DNA of 64,000 nucleotides from Chitinophagaceae bacterium (GTDB lineage Bacteria; Bacteroidota; Bacteroidia; Chitinophagales; Chitinophagaceae), in contig JALHRP010000011.1 of the NCBI GenBank assembly GCA_022841365.1, positions 1-64,000 of the forward strand, written 5' to 3'. Made by a program: the position numbers and the translations under genes. Below, piece after piece: positions 26,013 through 44,859 of this stretch (position 1 is the first letter of the stretch; every line of letters starts with the position of its first letter). The notes below the pieces were generated by a model. The model was not told the DNA's origin. It was given only the letters and a program-made list of their open reading frames with translations, and searched no databases.

Positions 26013-26993
26013 CTATAAGGCCAGCAAACTGCAGCCTCTGATATCGCTGTTATCCATCCTGCCCAGGATTCTGAAACTGCCATCTGCAAATACTTCGCCC
26101 ACATCATCTGTAGCAATAAAGCAGCAGGAATAAATATTGGCAAGATCAATAATATTGATCGCTCCTTTTCCTGTTGTGCTAATGTGCATTGGATCATCTT
26201 CATCTCTTACCAGCACTTTCATCCATGGCGGACAATGAAACAATCCATCACCCGATGAATAAGCCTGACTCAACAACTCCGTCATCCCGTATTCAGAATG
26301 AATTGTATTTACAGCAAAACTGTTTTTCAATTGCAGATGGAGTTCTTCTCTTGTAAGTTCTTCCCTTCTGCCTTTCATACCACCCGTTTCAACAATTGTT
26401 GTGTTGTAACATTGCAGGTTATACTTCTCAGCAAAATCGAGCAATGCAAAACTCACTCCTATCAACATCGTTTGCTGCCCGTTTGTTTCAAGCAATTTCA
26501 ATGTTTGATGTAATTGTTCAAATTCATTTAGATAAAAACCATTATTGGGGTGCTGACTTTCATCCATCAGCCGTTTAACCATATATACTAAAGAGGAATG
26601 CTTGCGTTCCAGGTAAGCAGGTAACAATCCCAGGAAACACCAGTTTTCAGGATTGCCGTAACGGAGTTCGAAACCATTGAAAAAAGCATCTTCATACAAT
26701 GCAATGCTTTTTACTGCATGTTTGCTCTGGATGGTTTGGGAAGTACCGCTGCTTTCAAAAATGATCTCAGGCTCAAATTGTGTGGAACAAACCGTATGCG
26801 TTTTAAAAAAACTGATGGGTAAAAAAGGCATCCGGGCATCGTTCTTTATCCGATCAAGGTCTGTTTTAAGTGAATTGCAAAATAACCGGTAAACCTCATT
26901 CGTTTCATATTGAAATTGAAATGCCGCATATGCAGCCGTACCGAAGTTGGCAGCGTTTACCTCAAAAAGATTGTTAACAAATGAAGGAATCAA
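26013..26993 (-). CDS. LuxE-like acyl-protein synthetase family protein
   Basis: A 326-residue member of the ANL superfamily branch PF04443 (LuxE). It shows the phosphate-binding SSGTSQT, TGGMKGRREELTREEL, the EYGMTELLSQAY motif and the hinge-type GRMDNSDIRG. LuxE activates fatty acids onto itself in luminous bacteria. Homologs in non-luminous Bacteroidota presumably adenylate an unknown acyl group. No lux genes are nearby. It is divergent from a lipoprotein gene at 27043, with a 49-bp spacer. Confidence 0.8.
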   Translation of the reverse strand: MIPSFVNNLFEVNAANFGTAAYAAFQFQYETNEVYRLFCNSLKTDLDRIKNDARMPFLPISFFKTHTVCSTQFEPEIIFESSGTSQTIQSKHAVKSIALYEDAFFNGFELRYGNPENWCFLGLLPAYLERKHSSLVYMVKRLMDESQHPNNGFYLNEFEQLHQTLKLLETNGQQTMLIGVSFALLDFAEKYNLQCYNTTIVETGGMKGRREELTREELHLQLKNSFAVNTIHSEYGMTELLSQAYSSGDGLFHCPPWMKVLVRDEDDPMHISTTGKGAINIIDLANIYSCCFIATDDVGEVFADGSFRILGRMDNSDIRGCSLLAL

Positions 26994-27042: not shown

Positions 27043-27513
27043 ATGAAAGCAAAACTATTATTTCTTTTTTTATTTATCGCTGCACTTGCAGCATGTAAGA
27101 AAGATAAATATCAAACAAAACCGCAACTGTCGCTCAAAAACGTAAAAGTTGGCGGTATACAGGATGCTGCCGGTACCATTGGTTCTACGGTTGAGTTTGA
27201 CATTGAAGTAACCGATAAAGAAGGAGATGTGGAAGACAGTATATTTATTGATAAAGTAGATGCTACAGGTATTTGTCCTGCCAATAGTCTCTTGCGGGAT
27301 GTATACAAGATCCCCAATTATCCAAACGAAAGCAACCAGAAAGTACTTTTTAAAGTGCGGTATGCCACTATTAATGTAGCCGGTTATGGTTTGTTAGGTG
27401 GCCCCCGTTGTTCTCCCAGAAAAGACACTTCGTTTTTCCGCTTTGTTGTGTCTGATAAAGCCAATAATAAAAGTGATACACTTTTTACCAGTGCTGTAGC
27501 CTTGCCTTTTTAA
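27043..27513 (+). CDS. hypothetical lipoprotein
   Basis: A 156-residue protein with an N-terminal signal and lipobox ALAAC followed by KKDKY. The mature part looks like a single beta-sandwich (VGSTVEFDIEVTDKEGDVEDSIFI, FFRFVVSDKANNKSDTLF), a pattern reminiscent of Ig-like or cadherin-like domains. Function unknown. It is followed 11 bp later by a UbiA-like membrane protein gene, so the two may be co-transcribed. Confidence 0.7.
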   Translation: MKAKLLFLFLFIAALAACKKDKYQTKPQLSLKNVKVGGIQDAAGTIGSTVEFDIEVTDKEGDVEDSIFIDKVDATGICPANSLLRDVYKIPNYPNESNQKVLFKVRYATINVAGYGLLGGPRCSPRKDTSFFRFVVSDKANNKSDTLFTSAVALPF

Positions 27514-27524
27514 GGAATGCATGG

Positions 27525-28361
27525 ATGATGCAAACAATTAAACGTTTTTTCTTTTTTCACCATTTTGTAATTGCATTGGGCGCTATTGCACTTTGTGTAC
27601 AGACCTTACTGTTCTACGGCAATACATCAGGCAATACTCCGTTGCTGCTGTTTATGTTTTTTGCAACCCTGCTCAGTTATAATACACACTTTTTTTTAGC
27701 GGCGCAAAAAAGTAATGCAACTGCACAGCATCGATGGTTTCAGCAAACCAGAACGTTTACTCTTCTTTTTAATCTGGCTGCAGCATTCCTGACAATATGG
27801 TATTGGTGGCAATTGAAAGAAATCCGATTGTTTATTGGGCTGTCGGTTTTTATTAATGCCTGTTATACTGCCCCGCTTCTCTTAAATAACCCTATCCGTT
27901 TGCCAAAACTGCTCACTTATCTTAAAAGTTATTTTATTGGATTCGTTTGGGCATGGGCTACAGTACTCCTACCCGTTCTGTTTCTGCAACATTCATTTGG
28001 ATTACCGGAAGTACTTCTGTTCATTAACCGCTTATTGCTGGTGGCTGCTGCCACACTGATTTTTGATTACAGAGACAAGCTGCAGGATTTTTCATCAGGC
28101 GTTTATACACCGGCCAATAAAATGAATGATCAACAGTTCAGCATTTTTTTTAATGCCAATGTTGTGCTGTATGCCATTTCGGTTTTATTCGTCAGCTACA
28201 GTTTTGATCAGCAGCTGTACTTGTTGCAACTGCTCTGCAGCCCCGTGCTGCTGGTTCTGTTTCATCTGTCAAAGAAACAAACCCATGAATATTATTATCT
28301 GGGCTGGGTAGATGGCATTTTAATCCTTTCCCCGCTGCTGAGTTTATTCCTGTTGTTTTAA
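27525..28361 (+). CDS. UbiA-like integral membrane protein
   Basis: About 278 residues with eight or nine predicted membrane helices. It ends its sixth-helix region with a DYRDKLQD motif that resembles the second aspartate-rich motif of UbiA prenyltransferases. The first motif (normally NxxxD) is not clear; only SYNTHFF lies near the expected place. It may therefore be a divergent or catalytically altered member. No quinone or carotenoid genes are adjacent. It lies between a lipoprotein and an M42 peptidase gene on the same strand, with short spacers. Confidence 0.6.
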   Translation: MMQTIKRFFFFHHFVIALGAIALCVQTLLFYGNTSGNTPLLLFMFFATLLSYNTHFFLAAQKSNATAQHRWFQQTRTFTLLFNLAAAFLTIWYWWQLKEIRLFIGLSVFINACYTAPLLLNNPIRLPKLLTYLKSYFIGFVWAWATVLLPVLFLQHSFGLPEVLLFINRLLLVAAATLIFDYRDKLQDFSSGVYTPANKMNDQQFSIFFNANVVLYAISVLFVSYSFDQQLYLLQLLCSPVLLVLFHLSKKQTHEYYYLGWVDGILILSPLLSLFLLF

Positions 28362-28385: not shown

Positions 28386-29501
28386 ATGGCGAAAGCAGTA
28401 AAGAACACAAAGAAAAAATCAATTCTAACAGATAGCTCACTCAACTTTTTAAAGCATTATCACAACACCCATTCACCTGTTGGTTTTGAAACCAGCGGAC
28501 AGAAAGTATGGCTGGAGTACTTGAAGCCATATGTTGATACGCATTTTTCTGATCCTTACGGTAGCGTTGTAGGTGTAGTTAATCCACAGCACAGTTTTAA
28601 AGTAGTGATTGAAGCACATGCCGATGAAATCAGCTGGTTTGTGAATTATATTTCACCTGACGGATTGATTTATTTAAAACGGAATGGTGGTGTTGATCAT
28701 CAGATTGCTCCGGCAAAACGAGTACTCATTCATGGAAAAAAAGGCATTGTAAAAGCTGTATTTGGATGGCCCGCCATTCATACCCGCCTCAGCAATCCCG
28801 ATGCTAAAGAACCACAACCAAAAGTGGACAATCTGTTTCTCGATTGCGGAGCAAGAAATAAAAAAGAAGCAGAAGCATTAGGTATAAAAATTGGCTGCGT
28901 TGTTACGTATGAAGAAGGTTTTGATGAACTGGCACATGACTATTATATTGCCCGTGCTTTTGATAACCGCATCGGTGGTTTTATGATTGCAGAAGTTGCC
29001 AGACTGCTGAAAGAAAATAACAAAAAACTTCCTTACGGCTTGTATGTAGTAAATGCTGTGCAGGAAGAAATTGGTTTACGTGGTGCTGAAATGATTGCCC
29101 GACGCATTAAACCCGATGTGGCCATTGTTACAGATGTAACGCATGATACAACCACTCCCATGATCAGTAAAATTATTGAAGGGGATATCAGTTGCGGTAA
29201 AGGACCATCTCTTGCTACAGCTCCCGCTGTACATAATAAGTTACTCGATTTTGTAACTGATGTGGCGGAGAAGAAAAAAATTCCGGTGCAATGGCGTTCT
29301 TTAAGCCGCAGTACAGGAACCGATACTGATTCATTTGCTTATGCCAATGACGGTTGTCCTTCAGTATTAATCAGCATACCTTTACGTTACATGCATACCA
29401 CGGTAGAAATGCTGCACAAAAGCGATATTGAAAACACCATTCAGTTGATGTATGAAACATTGCTGGCATTAACGCCCAAAACCAATCTCCGTTATTTATG
29501 A
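28386..29501 (+). CDS. M42 family metallopeptidase
   Basis: A 371-residue cytoplasmic aminopeptidase/endoglucanase-like M42 peptidase. Metal-binding and catalytic residues are visible in EAHADEISW (His-Asp), AFDNRIGG (Asp), QEEIGLRGAE (Glu-Glu), VTDVTHD (Asp) and RYMHTTVE (His). The N-terminal NTHSPVGFE is also typical. Its stop codon overlaps the start of the small membrane protein that follows (ATGATG across 29498-29503). Confidence 0.92.
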   Translation: MAKAVKNTKKKSILTDSSLNFLKHYHNTHSPVGFETSGQKVWLEYLKPYVDTHFSDPYGSVVGVVNPQHSFKVVIEAHADEISWFVNYISPDGLIYLKRNGGVDHQIAPAKRVLIHGKKGIVKAVFGWPAIHTRLSNPDAKEPQPKVDNLFLDCGARNKKEAEALGIKIGCVVTYEEGFDELAHDYYIARAFDNRIGGFMIAEVARLLKENNKKLPYGLYVVNAVQEEIGLRGAEMIARRIKPDVAIVTDVTHDTTTPMISKIIEGDISCGKGPSLATAPAVHNKLLDFVTDVAEKKKIPVQWRSLSRSTGTDTDSFAYANDGCPSVLISIPLRYMHTTVEMLHKSDIENTIQLMYETLLALTPKTNLRYL

Positions 29502-29671
29502 TGCAGCTCTTATACCTTGATCCCGGCAGCGGAAGCTATTTGATCCAGGTGATCATTGCAGGTGTGCTGGCTGTATTATTTTATTTTAAGAATACCTGGA
29601 ACTGGATCAAAAGTTTTTTCATTAAAACAGCTCCCAAAAACGAAGAGGAAAAGAATGAATCAAGCGATTAA
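29498..29671 (+). CDS. small membrane protein of the LDPGSG type
   Basis: A 57-residue ORF (56 if the second ATG is used). It starts with LLYLDPGSGSY, followed by one hydrophobic helix (LIQVIIAGVLAVLFYF), then KNTWNWIKSFF and a charged tail. Similar tiny proteins with a YLDPGxGS start occur next to envelope-modifying genes in several phyla (recalled, not checked). It overlaps the end of the M42 gene by four bases and the start of the methyltransferase gene by 17 bases, so translational coupling is likely. Confidence 0.75.
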   Translation: MMQLLYLDPGSGSYLIQVIIAGVLAVLFYFKNTWNWIKSFFIKTAPKNEEEKNESSD

Positions 29672-31031
29672 ACCTCATGCTGCTTCATTCCGTGATCCGT
29701 CCGGTTTTGTTTATGAAAAGGATGGAATCCTATATAGATTTGTTTCATCTGCATATCAATCAGCATATGACCTGTTACAATCATCCGGACTTGCTGATGA
29801 GCTGATCAAACAAAAAAAATTACTTCCGTTTACGGAGATCAATGAAAACCATACCAGCCGTGCTGATTGGTATAAAACACTGCAGCCGCAGTTGCTTCCA
29901 TTTGTATCGTATGCATGGGAATGGAGTTTTGATCAGTTAAAAGATGCTGCATTAACTACACTATCCATTTGCAGTGCAGCATTGAAAAAGGGTATGATTT
30001 TGAAAGATGCCACTCATACCAATATTCAGTTTGTAAATGGAAGGGCCAAATTAATTGATACACTTTCGTTTGAACGCTATACCGAAGGTGAGCCATGGGT
30101 AGCTTACCGTCAATTTTGTGAATGCTTTCTCAACCCTTTACTGCTGGCAGCTTACAAAGGAATGGAAGTACATAAACTATTGCTGAGTTATCCCGACGGT
30201 GTTCCTGCTGCCTCTACTGCCAATCTGCTTCCGTTTAAAACAAAGTTGAAACCCGTTGTTTACCTGCATGTGCATTTGCATGCAAATCTTTCCGGAAAGG
30301 CGGATGTAAGTACAACGAAGCAAACAAAGAAAGTTACGCTGAAAAATATGGAGCAGATCATTCAAAGTCTGCACGATTGTATTTCTTCTCTTACTCTCCC
30401 AACGCAACAAACAACCTGGAATAATTATTACGATGAAACCATCCTGAGCGATCAATACCTCTCCGAAAAAAAGAAACTGGTTGCTGCATGGCTTGGTGAG
30501 ATGAATTATACCTCTGTAATTGATTTGGGTGCAAACGAAGGCGAATTTTCTTTGCTCTGCAAAAAAGAAGCGTTAGTTGTTGCAACAGATTTCGACAGCG
30601 CCTGTATCAACTCCTTGTACACAAAATTAAAAGCTGAAAAGCTGCAGCATATTATTCCGTTGATTGTTGATCTTACTTACCCATCTTCATCTTTAGGTTG
30701 GGCAAATGCAGAGCGTACAGCTTTTTTCAAACGAAAAACATTTGATCTGGGCTTTGCACTGGCGCTCATCCATCATCTGGCAATTGCTAAGAATATTTCA
30801 TTTAATCAGATAGCCTTATTCTTCTCAGATATTTGTAATGAACTGATCATAGAGTTTGTGCCGAAAACGGATCCAAAAGTGAAGGGCATGCTGCAATGGA
30901 GAAAGGATATTTTTGAACTGTATACTGAGGAACAGTTTGAAAAAAGTTTTGGAGAACATTTTCTGTTGAAAAAGAAAACTGCTGTCCCCGGTTCTGAAAG
31001 AACGCTTTATTATTATCAGAAAAAACAGTAA
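29655..31031 (+). CDS. kinase-like / class I SAM-dependent methyltransferase fusion protein
   Basis: A 458-residue protein. The N-terminal ~270 residues contain a kinase-like catalytic-loop pattern: Asp118 in KDATHTN, Asn123 five residues later and Asp135 in LIDT, matching the D-x4-N and later D spacing of protein-kinase-fold enzymes. The C-terminal part has a SAM-binding motif VIDLGANEGEF (Asp290 region), ATDFD and LALIHHLA. Similar proteins have been annotated as NoeA-like nodulation methyltransferases (recalled). The start at 29655 (MNQAIKPHAASFRDPSGF) is chosen because it matches the conserved domain start. It is followed 19 bp later by the sulfatase-fold genes. Confidence 0.75.
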   Translation: MNQAIKPHAASFRDPSGFVYEKDGILYRFVSSAYQSAYDLLQSSGLADELIKQKKLLPFTEINENHTSRADWYKTLQPQLLPFVSYAWEWSFDQLKDAALTTLSICSAALKKGMILKDATHTNIQFVNGRAKLIDTLSFERYTEGEPWVAYRQFCECFLNPLLLAAYKGMEVHKLLLSYPDGVPAASTANLLPFKTKLKPVVYLHVHLHANLSGKADVSTTKQTKKVTLKNMEQIIQSLHDCISSLTLPTQQTTWNNYYDETILSDQYLSEKKKLVAAWLGEMNYTSVIDLGANEGEFSLLCKKEALVVATDFDSACINSLYTKLKAEKLQHIIPLIVDLTYPSSSLGWANAERTAFFKRKTFDLGFALALIHHLAIAKNISFNQIALFFSDICNELIIEFVPKTDPKVKGMLQWRKDIFELYTEEQFEKSFGEHFLLKKKTAVPGSERTLYYYQKKQ

Positions 31032-31050
31032 AACCACCTGCGTTTTCTTC

Positions 31051-32580
31051 ATGAAAGAAACAATTCTTAAAAAGCTGCAACAGAAACCATTCTTTCTGGT
31101 TTTACTACCCGTCTTTTTTATTTTGCATGGATACAATGAGTTCTTTGGATTTTTTACACTAAAGTTTACCACCCTTCATCTTACTGCCGTTTTATTATTC
31201 ACTGCAATACTGTACTTAACTGCCTATGTTTATTTCAGGAGCCTGAAAAAAACTGCATTGTTTAGTTTTTGGTTTCTCCTGTTGCTCTTAACCTTTGGTA
31301 GTGTACACGACCTGTTGAAAAAAACAGCCCCCGGTTTTTTCAGCAGTTATACATTTCTGCTGCCGTTGATCTTACTTGCAATGATTATACTCATTGTCCG
31401 GATCAAAAAAAGCCCTTCACAGTTTTTGCGGACATTCACTTTCCTTAATCTGGTAATGATCATTTTTCTGCTGTATGAATTTGCAGACGGAATTCAACGG
31501 TTTATACAGGTTCAAAAAGGAAGCAACTTAATTGACAACCGGTTTACAGCTTTTAAAAATTATAAACCTTTAACAGCTGTTGCAGAAGCTGATAAACCGG
31601 ATATATATTTTTTGGTATTTGATGGAATGCCTTCAACCAAGGCAATGAAAGCAGCATGGAATTATGATAACAGCTCGTTAGACAGCTTTTTATTGAAAGA
31701 GCATTTTTTTATCAGCCATGATTCAAAAAGTAATTACAACCTGACAGTACTCTCTATCAGCAGCACATTAAATATGGACTATACCCCTCCTGTTGATCTT
31801 GCACAGGATGAAACCAAAATGTATTTCAAAGCATCCGCATCTATCCTGAAAAATTCTCTTACAGAAATTTTACTGAAAGAAGATTACAGCATTAAACAAT
31901 ACCAACCGGTTTCGTTTAATAATCCGGACTGGAAAGGCGGGTTGTTTTTTACAGACATGCTGTACATGCACTACTTCTATCAAACATTACCCGGTCGTAT
32001 ATACCGTGATCTTGGCTGGCATTTCTTTAAGCGTTTTAAAAATGCAGAAAAAACTTATAACAACAGAAACGCTCTGGCAGAAACCGATTTAAAACAAACA
32101 CTATCACTGGTTAAAGAGTCCTGCGACACATTGCAACGAAAGCCACAGTTCATTTATGCGCATTTTCGTTTACCGCATGATCCTTATATTTTTGACAGTA
32201 CAGGAAAAAGAAAGCCCGGCTTATTAACAACAAAGCTCAAGGAAGAAGATCAGCCTAAAGTATTTATTGAGCAGGTTCAATTTGCAAATCTGCTTATTAA
32301 AGATCTCACTACGCACATTAAAAGAAATAATAAAAAGAACACAGTCATCATTGTTGAAGGTGATCATGGTTACAGGAATATCTACGGCAAAAAAGGGTAT
32401 ATGATTTTTGACAACTTACATACCATATACTACCCCGATCAAGATTACAAAACCCTGTATCCATCCATCAGTCCGGTAAACAGCTTCCGATCGGTAGTGA
32501 ACAAATTCTTCCATGCAAATCTGCCAATCTTAAAAGATAGCAGTATTTTCATTCCTTATAACTTACCGGGCGAACAATAA
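31051..32580 (+). CDS. membrane sulfatase-fold (alkaline phosphatase superfamily) protein, copy 1
   Basis: A 509-residue protein with five N-terminal membrane helices (to ~residue 155) and an extracytoplasmic sulfatase-like domain. Candidate metal and catalytic residues are Asp191 (LVFDGMP), Thr232 in NYNLT as nucleophile, His376 (LPHDPY), and Asp438-His439 in GDHG. This layout, a membrane part plus a Thr nucleophile, resembles LTA synthase and phosphoethanolamine transferases more than soluble sulfatases. It is the first of two paralogs separated by five bases. The acceptor is unknown, probably an envelope glycan or lipid (inference). Confidence 0.8.
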   Translation: MKETILKKLQQKPFFLVLLPVFFILHGYNEFFGFFTLKFTTLHLTAVLLFTAILYLTAYVYFRSLKKTALFSFWFLLLLLTFGSVHDLLKKTAPGFFSSYTFLLPLILLAMIILIVRIKKSPSQFLRTFTFLNLVMIIFLLYEFADGIQRFIQVQKGSNLIDNRFTAFKNYKPLTAVAEADKPDIYFLVFDGMPSTKAMKAAWNYDNSSLDSFLLKEHFFISHDSKSNYNLTVLSISSTLNMDYTPPVDLAQDETKMYFKASASILKNSLTEILLKEDYSIKQYQPVSFNNPDWKGGLFFTDMLYMHYFYQTLPGRIYRDLGWHFFKRFKNAEKTYNNRNALAETDLKQTLSLVKESCDTLQRKPQFIYAHFRLPHDPYIFDSTGKRKPGLLTTKLKEEDQPKVFIEQVQFANLLIKDLTTHIKRNNKKNTVIIVEGDHGYRNIYGKKGYMIFDNLHTIYYPDQDYKTLYPSISPVNSFRSVVNKFFHANLPILKDSSIFIPYNLPGEQ

Positions 32581-32585
32581 ATTTC

Positions 32586-34175
32586 ATGCGTTTACTGTAT
32601 CAGCAAATAACACATTTTTTTAAAACAAGACCTCTCTTTCTGCTGCTGCTGCCGCTGTTTTTTATTTACAGCGGCTATAATGAGCTGTTTGGATTTTTAA
32701 GCTTCCGGTTTGTTGCACTCAACTTTGCTGTATGCGTTGTGTGTATGCTGTTGCTCTTGTTGGTATCATTCCTGTTCCTGAAGTCCCTGACCAAAGCTTC
32801 TGTGTTTACTTTTTTCTGCTCACTTTTTTTTCTGGTGTTTGGTTATTTACACGACAGTTTAAAGCAACTCTCTTCAACTGCGTTTTTTACAAAATTCACC
32901 ATACTGCTGCCTATTTGTGCTTTACTGTTGCTCTTCCTGTTTCTTTATTTAAAAAAACGGAAAAAAGATTTTACAGAATTGCACCTGTTCTTAAATGCAT
33001 TGTTCTGCATCCTGCTCTTATCTGAAATACCAAACAGTATTAAACGATACCGGCTCGATCAGAGTGTGCACAATCTGATTGACTTTCGCTTCAATGCATT
33101 CAACAGTTACCTACCATCTGCACCGTTAGTTGATTCACTAAAGCCTGATATCTATTTTCTGGTGTTTGATGCAATGACATCGTCCAAAGGATTGATGCAG
33201 GTGATTGGTAAAAATCATACAGAGCTCGACAGCTTTCTTCACCAGCAGGAATTTTATATTGCTGAAAATGCAAGTGCAAACTACAATTCAACCATCCATT
33301 CACTCAGCACTACATTTAATATGGACTATCTCCCAACATGGATAGTTCCGGTTGCCAATGATCCAAAGGCTTTATTCTGGGGTTCTGCATCCATCCTCAA
33401 CAATTCACTTTTTTCTATTCTGCAAAAAGAAGGTTATGAAACAAAGAGCTATCAACCCATTTCATTCGATAATAAAGACTGGAATGATGAAACCTTTTTC
33501 AGCAACCTGAAAAAAAATCATTTCTATTTTAAAACCCTGCCCGGCAGATTAAGTCGTGATCTTTTCTGGAACTACTCAAAAATTGATCTGCCGTTTATCC
33601 ACCAAAAACAAATACAGTTTATTGAAGATCGTAATCAACAGAAACTGCAATCGTTTAACAGAACAGCAGAGCTGTTGAAAAACTCCTGTTCCACAACAGG
33701 AAAGCCAAAGTTTGTGTACAGTCATTTTATGATTCCCCATGAGCAATACATATTCGACAGTACAGGGAAATTAAAATTGCCGCTGCAAACCATTATTCAT
33801 CGTAAGGAAGAGGATGCGCCTGCTTACTATCAGCAGGTTATTTATGCAGGAAAGGTGATCAAGGAACTTGTTCAACACATTCGTGAGAATAACAAAAAAA
33901 ATACCGTCATTATTGTTGCAGGTGATCATGGGTACAGAACTGAACAGGGAAATAAAACAGGTTATACGTTCAGCAATCTGCAGGCCATTTATTTTCCCGA
34001 CAGGCAGTACCAACAGTTGTACGATTCCATTTCACCGGTCAATACCTTCAGGGTGGTACTCAATAAATATTTTAATGCAGGGTTTACTTTGCATGCAGAC
34101 AGCAGCATACTGGTGAGTTCAAAAAAAGAAACTATCAGGAAATCAGAAAAGATACAGCCAGCTCGTACCCCTTAA
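32586..34175 (+). CDS. membrane sulfatase-fold (alkaline phosphatase superfamily) protein, copy 2
   Basis: A 529-residue paralog of the preceding gene with the same architecture: about five N-terminal membrane helices, then Asp195 (LVFDAMT), Thr236 in NYNST, His385 (IPHEQY) and Asp447-His448 in GDHG. Shared stretches such as SGYNE-FGF, SASILNNSL, TLPGR and NNKKNTVIIV show a clear duplication, but the two have diverged strongly, so distinct substrates are likely. Its last 41 bases overlap the 3' end of aroQ on the other strand, giving a basic tail. Confidence 0.8.
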   Translation: MRLLYQQITHFFKTRPLFLLLLPLFFIYSGYNELFGFLSFRFVALNFAVCVVCMLLLLLVSFLFLKSLTKASVFTFFCSLFFLVFGYLHDSLKQLSSTAFFTKFTILLPICALLLLFLFLYLKKRKKDFTELHLFLNALFCILLLSEIPNSIKRYRLDQSVHNLIDFRFNAFNSYLPSAPLVDSLKPDIYFLVFDAMTSSKGLMQVIGKNHTELDSFLHQQEFYIAENASANYNSTIHSLSTTFNMDYLPTWIVPVANDPKALFWGSASILNNSLFSILQKEGYETKSYQPISFDNKDWNDETFFSNLKKNHFYFKTLPGRLSRDLFWNYSKIDLPFIHQKQIQFIEDRNQQKLQSFNRTAELLKNSCSTTGKPKFVYSHFMIPHEQYIFDSTGKLKLPLQTIIHRKEEDAPAYYQQVIYAGKVIKELVQHIRENNKKNTVIIVAGDHGYRTEQGNKTGYTFSNLQAIYFPDRQYQQLYDSISPVNTFRVVLNKYFNAGFTLHADSSILVSSKKETIRKSEKIQPARTP

Positions 34176-43875: not shown

Positions 43876-44859
43876 ATGCACGCCGGTAATCAATACTCAC
43901 TGAAAGAATTTATTGTATGGACAAGAAGAGACATTTATGCATTGCTTTTTCTTGCTGCTGTGCCTACCATACTGTTCCAGCTATTCAACTGGCACTGGCT
44001 GGCGATTCCATGGGTGCCCATTGCAATGATTGGTACAGCCGCCGCTTTTATTGTTGGTTTTAAAAACACTCAAACCTATAACCGTTTATGGGAAGCCCGT
44101 CAAATCTACGGTGCAATTGTAAACAGCAGTCGTTCATGGGGTGTGATGGCCAGAGATTTTGTAAAAGATCCTGCTGCACAAAAAACACTCATCTACCGGC
44201 ATATTGCATGGCTAACGGCTTTGCGTTTTCAACTGAGAGAATCGAGAAAATGGGAGAACACGGAAAAGAAATATAACATTGAATACAAGCGTTTTTATAA
44301 AATACCTGAAAAAGAAAGTAATCTTGAAACAGAGTTAAAAGCATTGATATCTGAAGAAGATGCAACCTATGTGCTGCAGAAAAAAAACCGTGCTACTCAA
44401 CTCATCAGTTTACAATCGTTGCACCTGAAACAACTGAAAGAAGCGGGCCATATTGAACCTCTGAATTATATTGAGCTCCAGAACATGCTGGTTAACCTGT
44501 ATGAACAGCAGGGGAAATGTGAACGGATTAAAAACTTTCCCTACCCACGGCAGTTTGCATCCATCAACAAATTTTTCATTGTTCTTTTTATCAGTATTGT
44601 GCCCTTTGGTTTATTGAATGAGTTTCAGAAAATGGGCGAACATTATGTGTGGCTCAACATCCCCTTCAGCATCATTGTTTGCTGGGTTTTTTCTTCAATG
44701 GAACGTGTGGGTGAAGCAACTGAAAATCCGTTTGAAGGTGGCGCCAACGATGTGCCCATTACAGCACTGAGCCGAACCATAGAAATTGATTTACGGGAAA
44801 TGCTCGATGAAACAGAACTGCCTCCTGCCTTACAGCCTGTCAACAATATATTAATGTAA
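43876..44859 (+). CDS. bestrophin family ion channel
   Basis: A 327-residue membrane protein. Its four membrane helices (LLFLAAVPTILFQLF, AIPWVPIAMIGTAAAFIVGF, FFIVLFISIVPFGLL, NIPFSIIVCWVFSSMERVGE) and the motifs FKNTQTYNRLWEARQIYGAIVNSSRSW and ENPFEGGANDVPI are diagnostic of bacterial bestrophin-like proteins (Bestrophin/RFP-TM). Bacterial homologs conduct monovalent ions. It is a single gene. Confidence 0.9.
   Translation: MHAGNQYSLKEFIVWTRRDIYALLFLAAVPTILFQLFNWHWLAIPWVPIAMIGTAAAFIVGFKNTQTYNRLWEARQIYGAIVNSSRSWGVMARDFVKDPAAQKTLIYRHIAWLTALRFQLRESRKWENTEKKYNIEYKRFYKIPEKESNLETELKALISEEDATYVLQKKNRATQLISLQSLHLKQLKEAGHIEPLNYIELQNMLVNLYEQQGKCERIKNFPYPRQFASINKFFIVLFISIVPFGLLNEFQKMGEHYVWLNIPFSIIVCWVFSSMERVGEATENPFEGGANDVPITALSRTIEIDLREMLDETELPPALQPVNNILM

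Follow-up and report, generated by a model that had tools for sequence, protein, structure and literature searches.

We describe a 64,000-nucleotide stretch of a Chitinophagaceae genome (GenBank assembly GCA_022841365.1, contig JALHRP010000011.1, positions 1 to 64,000 of the forward strand; hereafter, the window), in which four adjacent genes at 29498-34175 encode a tiny membrane protein (S57), a fusion protein assigned by homology to the NoeA family, and two paralogous membrane enzymes (SULF1 and SULF2) that correspond to NoeB. The four-gene observation, made in an initial annotation, is confirmed as real. The genes are listed below.

29498..29671, + strand: S57, a 57-amino-acid single-helix membrane protein with a Y-[LIV]-D-P-G-[ST]-G-S motif, supported by homolog alignments
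29655..31031, + strand: NoeA-family protein of 458 amino acids, starting at the ATG at 29655, with a kinase-like region (residues ~1-245) followed by a class I S-adenosylmethionine (SAM) methyltransferase (~251-458)
31051..32580, + strand: SULF1, NoeB-like, with five N-terminal helices and an alkaline-phosphatase-superfamily domain (D191, T232, H371, H376, D438, H439)
32586..34175, + strand: SULF2, a NoeB-like paralog, with a Pfam Sulfatase match and close counterparts in 10 of 11 loci of the genus

The open reading frame (ORF) of S57, first noted as an LDPGSG-type membrane protein of about 57 residues, lies where it had been placed. The genes are tightly packed: S57 and the NoeA-like gene overlap by 17 nucleotides (nt), and gaps of 19 and 5 nt separate NoeA from SULF1 and SULF1 from SULF2. 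The claim that they make up one unit holds to the extent that the unit is real and its order recurs in other genomes; because the order recurs across loci, the four genes are more than a chance grouping. The unit does not stand alone, as it forms the 3' end of a seven-gene co-directional run that starts at 27043. The nearest relatives are recorded as Chitinophagaceae, two Lacibacter strains included.

In a tblastn search, residues 9-458 of the fusion protein matched a Sinorhizobium medicae record annotated noeA (31.2% identity, E 3e-56). Among 72,556 plasmid records, 65 matched, 61 of them from Sinorhizobium, Ensifer, or Rhizobium; noeA is annotated in 4 of the best 30 of these 65 matching records. 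On sequence grounds, the fusion protein belongs to the NoeA (Lani_1194) family, and the SULF transferases correspond to NoeB. A categorically new system is ruled out by this homology and by an architecture, NoeB-like neighbor included, that is already in print (PMC9758233, cited here, like the other papers below, for the portions of its text that were available), and the original proposal of an undescribed pathway does not survive.

S57 is the part of the module of which we found no description in the available text of the noeA/noeB literature and for which neither Pfam nor NCBIfam gave a named family. Its residues Y6, D8, and Q17 are invariant in 26 sequences, and the C-terminal flank is more basic than the N-terminal flank in 61 of 78 homologs. 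By eye, two rhizobial homologs have a signal-peptide-like N terminus ending in AHA before YLDPGTGS, and AHA precedes YLDAASAS in the Novosphingobium homolog. The predicted topology is thus probably N-out/C-in, with the motif facing the periplasm. Homologs adjoin NoeA in Bacteroidota, Sinorhizobium, Rhizobium, Novosphingobium, Gemmatirosa, and the deltaproteobacterium Smac51, and in Singulisphaera an S57 gene (E 7.5e-16) lies beside NoeA (E 1.2e-181) and SULF (E 2.6e-74). The order S57-NoeA-SULF is found in Sinorhizobium, Rhizobium, Novosphingobium, Gemmatirosa, and Singulisphaera; Smac51 has all three parts in the order SULF, NoeA, S57. As judged from these homologs, S57 is a constitutive third component, with NoeA and a NoeB-like enzyme, in Bacteroidota, alpha- and deltaproteobacteria, Gemmatimonadota, and Planctomycetota. 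The PLSDB gene table does not list the S57 gene of the Singulisphaera plasmid pSINAC01 (L145 4298-4564); genes of this small family readily escape notice.

The arrangement was quantified in a set of 80 larger loci, kept from 426, in which proportions count the loci with enough sequence. S57 is directly upstream of NoeA in 69 of 74 loci (67 of 74 by script, the higher figure coming from inspection of the list), and a SULF gene starts within 400 nt downstream of NoeA in 64 of 75 (62 of 75 by script). Among the variant orders is S57-SULF-S57-NoeA-SULF (L059 and L094). A survey of the phylum yielded seven further Bacteroidota loci, five with all three families by profile and a sixth with S57, NoeA, and a neighbor called Sulfatase by Pfam.

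Co-occurrence of the families, which the initial annotation had named among the observations on which its reading would stand or fall, was found among 59 genomes (the window's own included, and 14 of them from one genus): NoeA is present in 21, S57 in 20, and SULF, at E <1e-40, in 22. All 20 genomes with S57 carry NoeA, and in the one NoeA carrier without S57 (G025) NoeA is truncated by a contig end; the SULF-positive genomes are all 21 NoeA genomes plus one (G044). The SULF cutoff of E 1e-40 was chosen after the results had been seen; with a cutoff of E 0.001 the count rises to 26 genomes, and the four additional ones have E 7e-7 or worse. Since genome-level Fisher values are inflated by the 14 of 59 genomes from one genus, we prefer genus-level counts, by which S57 is present in 8 of 9 NoeA genera versus 0 of 36 others and SULF in 9 of 9 versus 1 of 36. 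A member of the window's genus, G005 (2.4 Mb, listed as 100% complete), lacks NoeA, S57, and SULF.

Copy numbers differ between the families. Each NoeA genome has a single NoeA (in G006 a second match proved to be a contig-end fragment) and no more than one S57 match, versus one to five SULF copies (a list count with fragments merged; one G013 copy has internal stops). This ratio leads us to propose one shared upstream step that serves several acceptor-specific transferases. Extra SULF paralogs at L024 4491-5993 (G013) and G002:C44:55510-56963 look decayed, with internal stops or split in two, which suggests turnover in the array. SULF1 and SULF2 themselves are paralogs with 45% identity. Within the genus, SULF2 is the more constant: SULF1 has a best match of at least 55% identity in 5 of 11 loci, and SULF2 has one of at least 48% in 10 of 11.

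The NoeA-family protein bears out the annotation of a kinase-like domain fused to a SAM methyltransferase. Residues D118, N123, and D135 are spaced like the catalytic Asp, the Asn, and the metal-binding Asp of kinases. Three alignments, of 14, 46, and 20 sequences (the window protein included in each, the last being a divergent set that includes alpha- and deltaproteobacteria and Gemmatimonadota), show no variation at these positions or in the SAM motif D290-G292-N294-G296. A matching Asp/Asn/Asp motif is present in 80 of 80 NoeA loci; Singulisphaera NoeA also keeps the three residues, and a Cys follows the Asp there, so that the motif pattern missed it. R28, invariant in 20 of 20 sequences, probably occupies the position of the usual kinase Lys, an equivalence that is taken from PMC9758233 and not from superposition.

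With the AlphaFold2 model of NoeA (mean predicted local distance difference test score [pLDDT] of 91.3) as the query, Foldseek ranked WbdD first (E 9.6e-8) and matched the MSK1 kinase domain over 275 columns (E 6e-6). The VIA-align matches lie mostly within residues 251-458 and are to methyltransferases at Z 16-18, including the methylphosphate capping enzyme MePCE and the RNA-phosphate methyltransferase BCDIN3D, tied with many others; its tables are filled by the methyltransferase domain and residues 1-250 are barely covered, so the absence of kinases there means nothing. Of 46 family members, 40 have a Pfam Methyltransf_23 match (E values up to 1), in keeping with a class I SAM methyltransferase at the C terminus. 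For the N terminus, hhalign placed D118/N123/D135 in register with the APH and Pkinase profiles (E 0.011 and 0.0067; probability 3.7% and 5.7%), compared with E 0.054-0.43 for shuffled or reversed controls, 0.047 (APH) and 0.021 (Pkinase) for an unrelated methyltransferase domain, and 4e-13 for the positive comparison of APH with Pkinase; the sets come from the same family of genomes and comprise 18 of 20 (APH) and 15 of 20 (Pkinase) fetched loci. A PDB profile search with the N terminus gave RIO3 as its sole match (E 0.32), and Pfam and NCBIfam gave no named family for it. The domain is likely kinase-like, mainly on the basis of motif, model, and literature, and can be called a putative kinase.

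The two SULF proteins match Pfam Sulfatase (26.0 bits for SULF1 and 48.3 bits for SULF2, at a cutoff of 25). Both had been described as five-helix membrane paralogs with a Thr and a metal site, and this description stands. In the AlphaFold2 model of SULF1 (pLDDT 91.7), five long helices near the N terminus (residues 15-30, 37-62, 65-92, 100-120, and 126-157) are followed by a C-terminal alpha/beta domain. In an alignment of 47 sequences (the two window copies and 45 of 86 full-length ORFs from the loci), the Thr of the NYNxT motif (T232) is kept in 45 and replaced by Ser in 2, and D191, N228, H371, H376, D438, H439, and N477 are kept in all 47; by analogy, T232 would attack as the nucleophile and D191, H371, H376, D438, and H439 would bind metal. 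T232 most commonly follows D191 by 40 or 41 residues, and H371 and H376 are most commonly five apart, a layout that we take to be similar to that of EptA and MCR-1. The enzymes EptA, EptC, and MCR-1 have a Thr nucleophile and a metal site. Foldseek with the SULF model ranked MCR-1, EptC, PbgA, and EptA first to fourth (E 3e-7 to 1.2e-6), and a PDB sequence search with SULF2 alone gave chance-level matches only.

Glycan genes accompany part of the loci. Of six unlinked SULF loci examined, three are near glycan biosynthesis genes: in G017, which has no SULF after NoeA, the unlinked SULF lies directly behind a Wzx-type flippase and a family 4 glycosyltransferase (GT4); in G032, likewise without SULF after NoeA, it lies near GT2, GT4, a GHMP kinase, an SIS isomerase, and an NTP-transferase/HAD fusion; and a copy on contig C58 of the window's own genome has a GT2 and a YdjC-type gene nearby. 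The G032 genes together look like a nucleotide-heptose pathway; at L205 1237-9202 the genes near the unlinked SULF that resemble such a pathway are for a GHMP kinase, an SIS isomerase, and an NTP-transferase/HAD fusion, with GT2 and GT4. The modules of Novosphingobium and Smac51 lie among GDP-mannose and glycosyltransferase genes. Those of Rhizobium, Sinorhizobium, and Singulisphaera are not among such genes, and the Rhizobium and Sinorhizobium ones are next to nodL. A 14-ORF cluster after the module resembles PIG-L deacetylases (Pfam was checked on one member).

The relative G012 (L023 6830-13504, compared with window 31051-34175) has a NoeA 95% identical to that of the window and a SULF1 that diverges abruptly after about residue 200. 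Genes for UDP-galactopyranose mutase (Glf), a polytopic protein, and a GT2 enzyme follow before SULF2, and the last ~49 nt of a window-type SULF1 remain just before SULF2. We read this divergence and the remnant as an allele swap inside SULF1 and as a sign of recombination inside the paralogs. In a distant Bacteroidota locus (L143 56-3809), an APS-kinase-family gene (PF01583) is directly behind a SULF-NoeA-S57 module; APS-type kinases also occur in phosphoramidate pathways, and the gene is a possible clue to the substrate.

We favor, with somewhat more confidence than doubt, the interpretation that the Bacteroidota NoeA/NoeB module modifies envelope glycans, with NoeA carrying out a phospho/methyl step, S57 providing coupling, and the NoeB-like enzymes performing exofacial phosphotransfer. 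The envelope setting proposed at the outset is thereby retained as the likeliest role, given the glycan genes at three of the six unlinked SULF loci, in G012, and around the Novosphingobium and Smac51 modules. The analysis shows which family each protein belongs to and which domains it has, that the catalytic residues are conserved, that the families occur together in unequal copy numbers, and that part of the loci have a glycan context; for the chemistry, the order of steps, the role and orientation of S57, and the substrate, we propose the following. The substrate of cytosolic NoeA would be membrane-bound (lipid-linked), either a sugar or a lipid carrier; the kinase-like domain would add or hold a phosphate, and the methyltransferase domain would methylate that phosphate or an adjacent group, perhaps in the manner of WbdD at the O-antigen chain end. 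S57, a membrane protein whose basic tail would lie inside and whose YLDPGSG end would lie outside, would link NoeA with the exofacial enzymes. With the Thr and the metal site, and through a covalent Thr-phospho intermediate, the NoeB-like enzymes would hand a phospho-group on to glycans or lipids of the envelope, and one NoeA/S57 pair would serve several such enzymes that differ in acceptor.

Several observations weigh against envelope-glycan modification by such a module. NoeA is patchy in the phylum: a survey of 296 genomes gave nine full-length matches and one split match, and in 34 more genomes the match is short and partial and almost always falls in the methyltransferase domain. SULF does not directly follow NoeA in 11 of 75 loci, S57 is missing from L081 and L115 though upstream sequence is present, the seventh further Bacteroidota locus (L144) has a divergent NoeA alone, with no S57 or SULF by profile, and G044 carries SULF without NoeA. 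The Chitinophagaceae module itself is beside housekeeping genes, and there are no evident glycan genes at L202, L206, and L207, which are the C1 copy of the window's genome and the G011 and G002 copies (the latter two adjoin a 527-amino-acid ORF without a Pfam match). Nothing in the analysis demonstrates contact of S57 with NoeA or with SULF. To these must be added two groups of results, on the kinase-like domain and on the SULF fold, that bear on the rival explanations as well.

The rival that survives best, which we nevertheless regard as rather unlikely, is that NoeA is a methyltransferase with a nucleotide- or substrate-binding pseudokinase domain that methylates a sugar or lipid-linked glycan, and that the NoeB-like enzymes separately add phosphoethanolamine or phosphoglycerol from phospholipid to that glycan. 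R28 stands where kinases usually have Lys, and no ion-pair Glu was identified (PMC9758233), so that the kinase-like domain may be non-catalytic or may act in a different way; the kinase homology of the N terminus is weak in profile tests, the alignment having a low probability and the methyltransferase-versus-Pkinase control being nearly equal (E 0.021). The fully conserved SAM motif and the resemblance of SULF to MCR-1, EptC, and EptA would suit this explanation too. However, the invariance of D118, N123, and D135 across the three alignments and all 80 loci, and their retention in Singulisphaera, would be unusual for a dead kinase at such evolutionary distances.

Less probable still, and offered as an unlikely extension of the favored interpretation, is a specific inner-membrane relay in which NoeA makes a methyl-phosphate-type lipid-linked donor, S57 couples it, and recombining exofacial Thr-phosphotransferases, each with its own acceptor, decorate different glycans, the same relay lying behind rhizobial noeA/noeB.

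It is quite improbable that the NoeB-like proteins are hydrolases (sulfatases, phosphodiesterases, or phosphatases) that remove or recycle esters of the envelope or the environment, with NoeA unrelated to that chemistry. Besides the Pfam assignment, a carrageenan sulfatase is at Foldseek rank 5 for the SULF model, and in VIA-align carbohydrate sulfatases tie with the phosphoethanolamine transferases EptC and MCR-1 and with YejM/PbgA (Z 18-21), so that the SULF fold cannot separate a transferase from a hydrolase. Sulfatases convert a C/S-x-P/A-x-R motif to formylglycine, whereas the SULF nucleophile, Thr or Ser in 47 of 47 sequences, lies outside such a motif, and the five fused membrane helices, the phyletic linkage to NoeA, and the glycosyltransferase and Wzx neighbors of some copies fit a transferase better.

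The remaining rival, a role other than glycans such as anti-phage defense or secreted-peptide processing, could appeal to an M42 aminopeptidase gene. This gene occurs in 65 of 80 loci and in the window overlaps S57, and the module behind it is either there as a whole block or not there at all. Such a role is very improbable, as 12 of 15 module-negative relatives examined keep M42, the annotation of the flanks in four loci outside Bacteroidota includes no M42 gene, and PADLOC gave one weak match only (PDC-S35, to SULF2, E 0.01).

The M42 gene and the other neighbors of the module in the window are as follows.

28386..29501, + strand: M42 aminopeptidase, a conserved chromosomal neighbor that marks the insertion slot
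27525..28361, + strand: polytopic membrane protein, co-directional, without a Pfam match
27043..27513, + strand: protein judged by eye to be lipoprotein-like, with which the co-directional run begins, without a Pfam match over the cutoff
26013-26993, divergent from the run: LuxE-type acyl-protein synthetase (PF04443 over the cutoff; NF052244 far below the cutoff)
43876-44859: bestrophin-family protein (PF25539, E 1.2e-44)

The run thus reads lipoprotein-like protein, polytopic membrane protein, M42 peptidase, S57, NoeA, SULF1, and SULF2, and it is likely a longer operon; the end of the M42 gene, with its stop, shares 4 nt with the start of S57. A promoter and terminator scan was not used, as it gave 15 promoter-like sites versus 21.3 in shuffles and 13 terminator-like sites versus 6.8, all those on the + strand being intragenic. 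In the module-negative relatives that keep M42, neither S57 nor NoeA was found in the ~1.4-1.5 kb behind it, and G005 is among the genomes that keep M42. Because M42 is kept without the module, it looks like a landing site. The peptidase is probably a housekeeping enzyme outside the module, and we reject it as a functional partner. Carriage by phages is likewise rejected (no NoeA match at E 1e-5 in 50,697 phage records), as is membership in the known defense families covered by PADLOC. At L161, in the module-less G005, a minus-strand ORF after M42 resembles a sulfotransferase (by eye only). The LuxE-type gene is syntenic across the genus, with no sign of membership in the module.

The noeA and noeB genes are long-standing nodulation host-range genes, and nodL-noeA-noeB were reportedly described as such by Ardourel et al. 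in 1995. NoeA and NoeB have been hypothesized to modify Nod factor (PMC9048898), a truncated noeA occurs in a strain that fails to nodulate 17 of 27 Medicago truncatula genotypes (PMC4053727), and noeA orthologs outside Medicago symbionts are reported in a Trifolium nodulator and a non-symbiont (PMC3899959). The available text of the noeA/noeB/nodL and noeB/Medicago literature gave no chemistry for either protein (PMC9758233, PMC10945364, PMC9048898, PMC4053727, PMC7709874, PMC5613336, PMC8706082, PMC4468178, and PMC3899959). Relative to that text, four things are new here: S57 is a constitutive component in five major lineages, the families share a phyletic profile, their copy ratio is one to many, and there are signs of recombination between the transferase paralogs. 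Relatives of noeA and noeB occur in the five major lineages sampled. The constitutive S57, together with the one NoeA that in Bacteroidota accompanies several NoeB-like transferases, some of them near glycan genes, makes the noeA/noeB question experimentally approachable and suggests that nodulation borrowed a general surface modification module.

A close published account is a 2022 analysis of the Legionella pan-kinome (PMC9758233), in which the Lani_1194 family combines a kinase-like domain with a methyltransferase, occurs in 1201 species besides Legionella, and has Lani_1193 (65% of 816 neighborhoods) and Lani_1195 (38%) as conserved neighbors. An alkaline-phosphatase fold is predicted there for Lani_1195 and NoeB, an Arg replaces the usual kinase Lys in Lani_1194, and the function is left open, with decoration of secreted factors or of the envelope being suggested. 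The Lani_1194/Lani_1195 pair of Legionella anisa shares with our module the kinase-like plus methyltransferase architecture, the Arg for Lys, and the alkaline-phosphatase-fold neighbor. Lani_1193 may be S57, although in the available text it is reported as a likely effector and is not described as a small membrane protein.

The rhizobial NoeA is homologous to the window protein over its full length (31%), and in S. medicae ml29 an S57 homolog is directly upstream of noeA and a SULF-family ORF is ~300 nt downstream. The Bacteroidota module differs in having no nodL neighbor, several NoeB-like paralogs per NoeA, and a chromosomal M42-peptidase slot. With the phosphoethanolamine transferases EptA, EptC, and MCR-1, which occupy the top four Foldseek ranks together with PbgA, the SULF proteins share membrane helices and an ectodomain of the alkaline phosphatase superfamily, but identity in the Foldseek matches is 10-14%, and the best sequence-profile match (4kav) has an E value of 0.2. 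WbdD (the O-antigen terminal kinase/methyltransferase of Escherichia coli O9a) joins a kinase and a SAM methyltransferase in one polypeptide, as NoeA joins a kinase-like domain and a SAM methyltransferase; the same pan-kinome analysis likens another family, Lcin_0519, to WbdD and considers those two only remotely related (PMC9758233). The domain order of WbdD is reversed: the NoeA methyltransferase profile (positions 280-402) matches WbdD residues 68-180, and in place of the WbdD-type order, an N-terminal methyltransferase and then a kinase, NoeA has the kinase-like domain first and the methyltransferase second.

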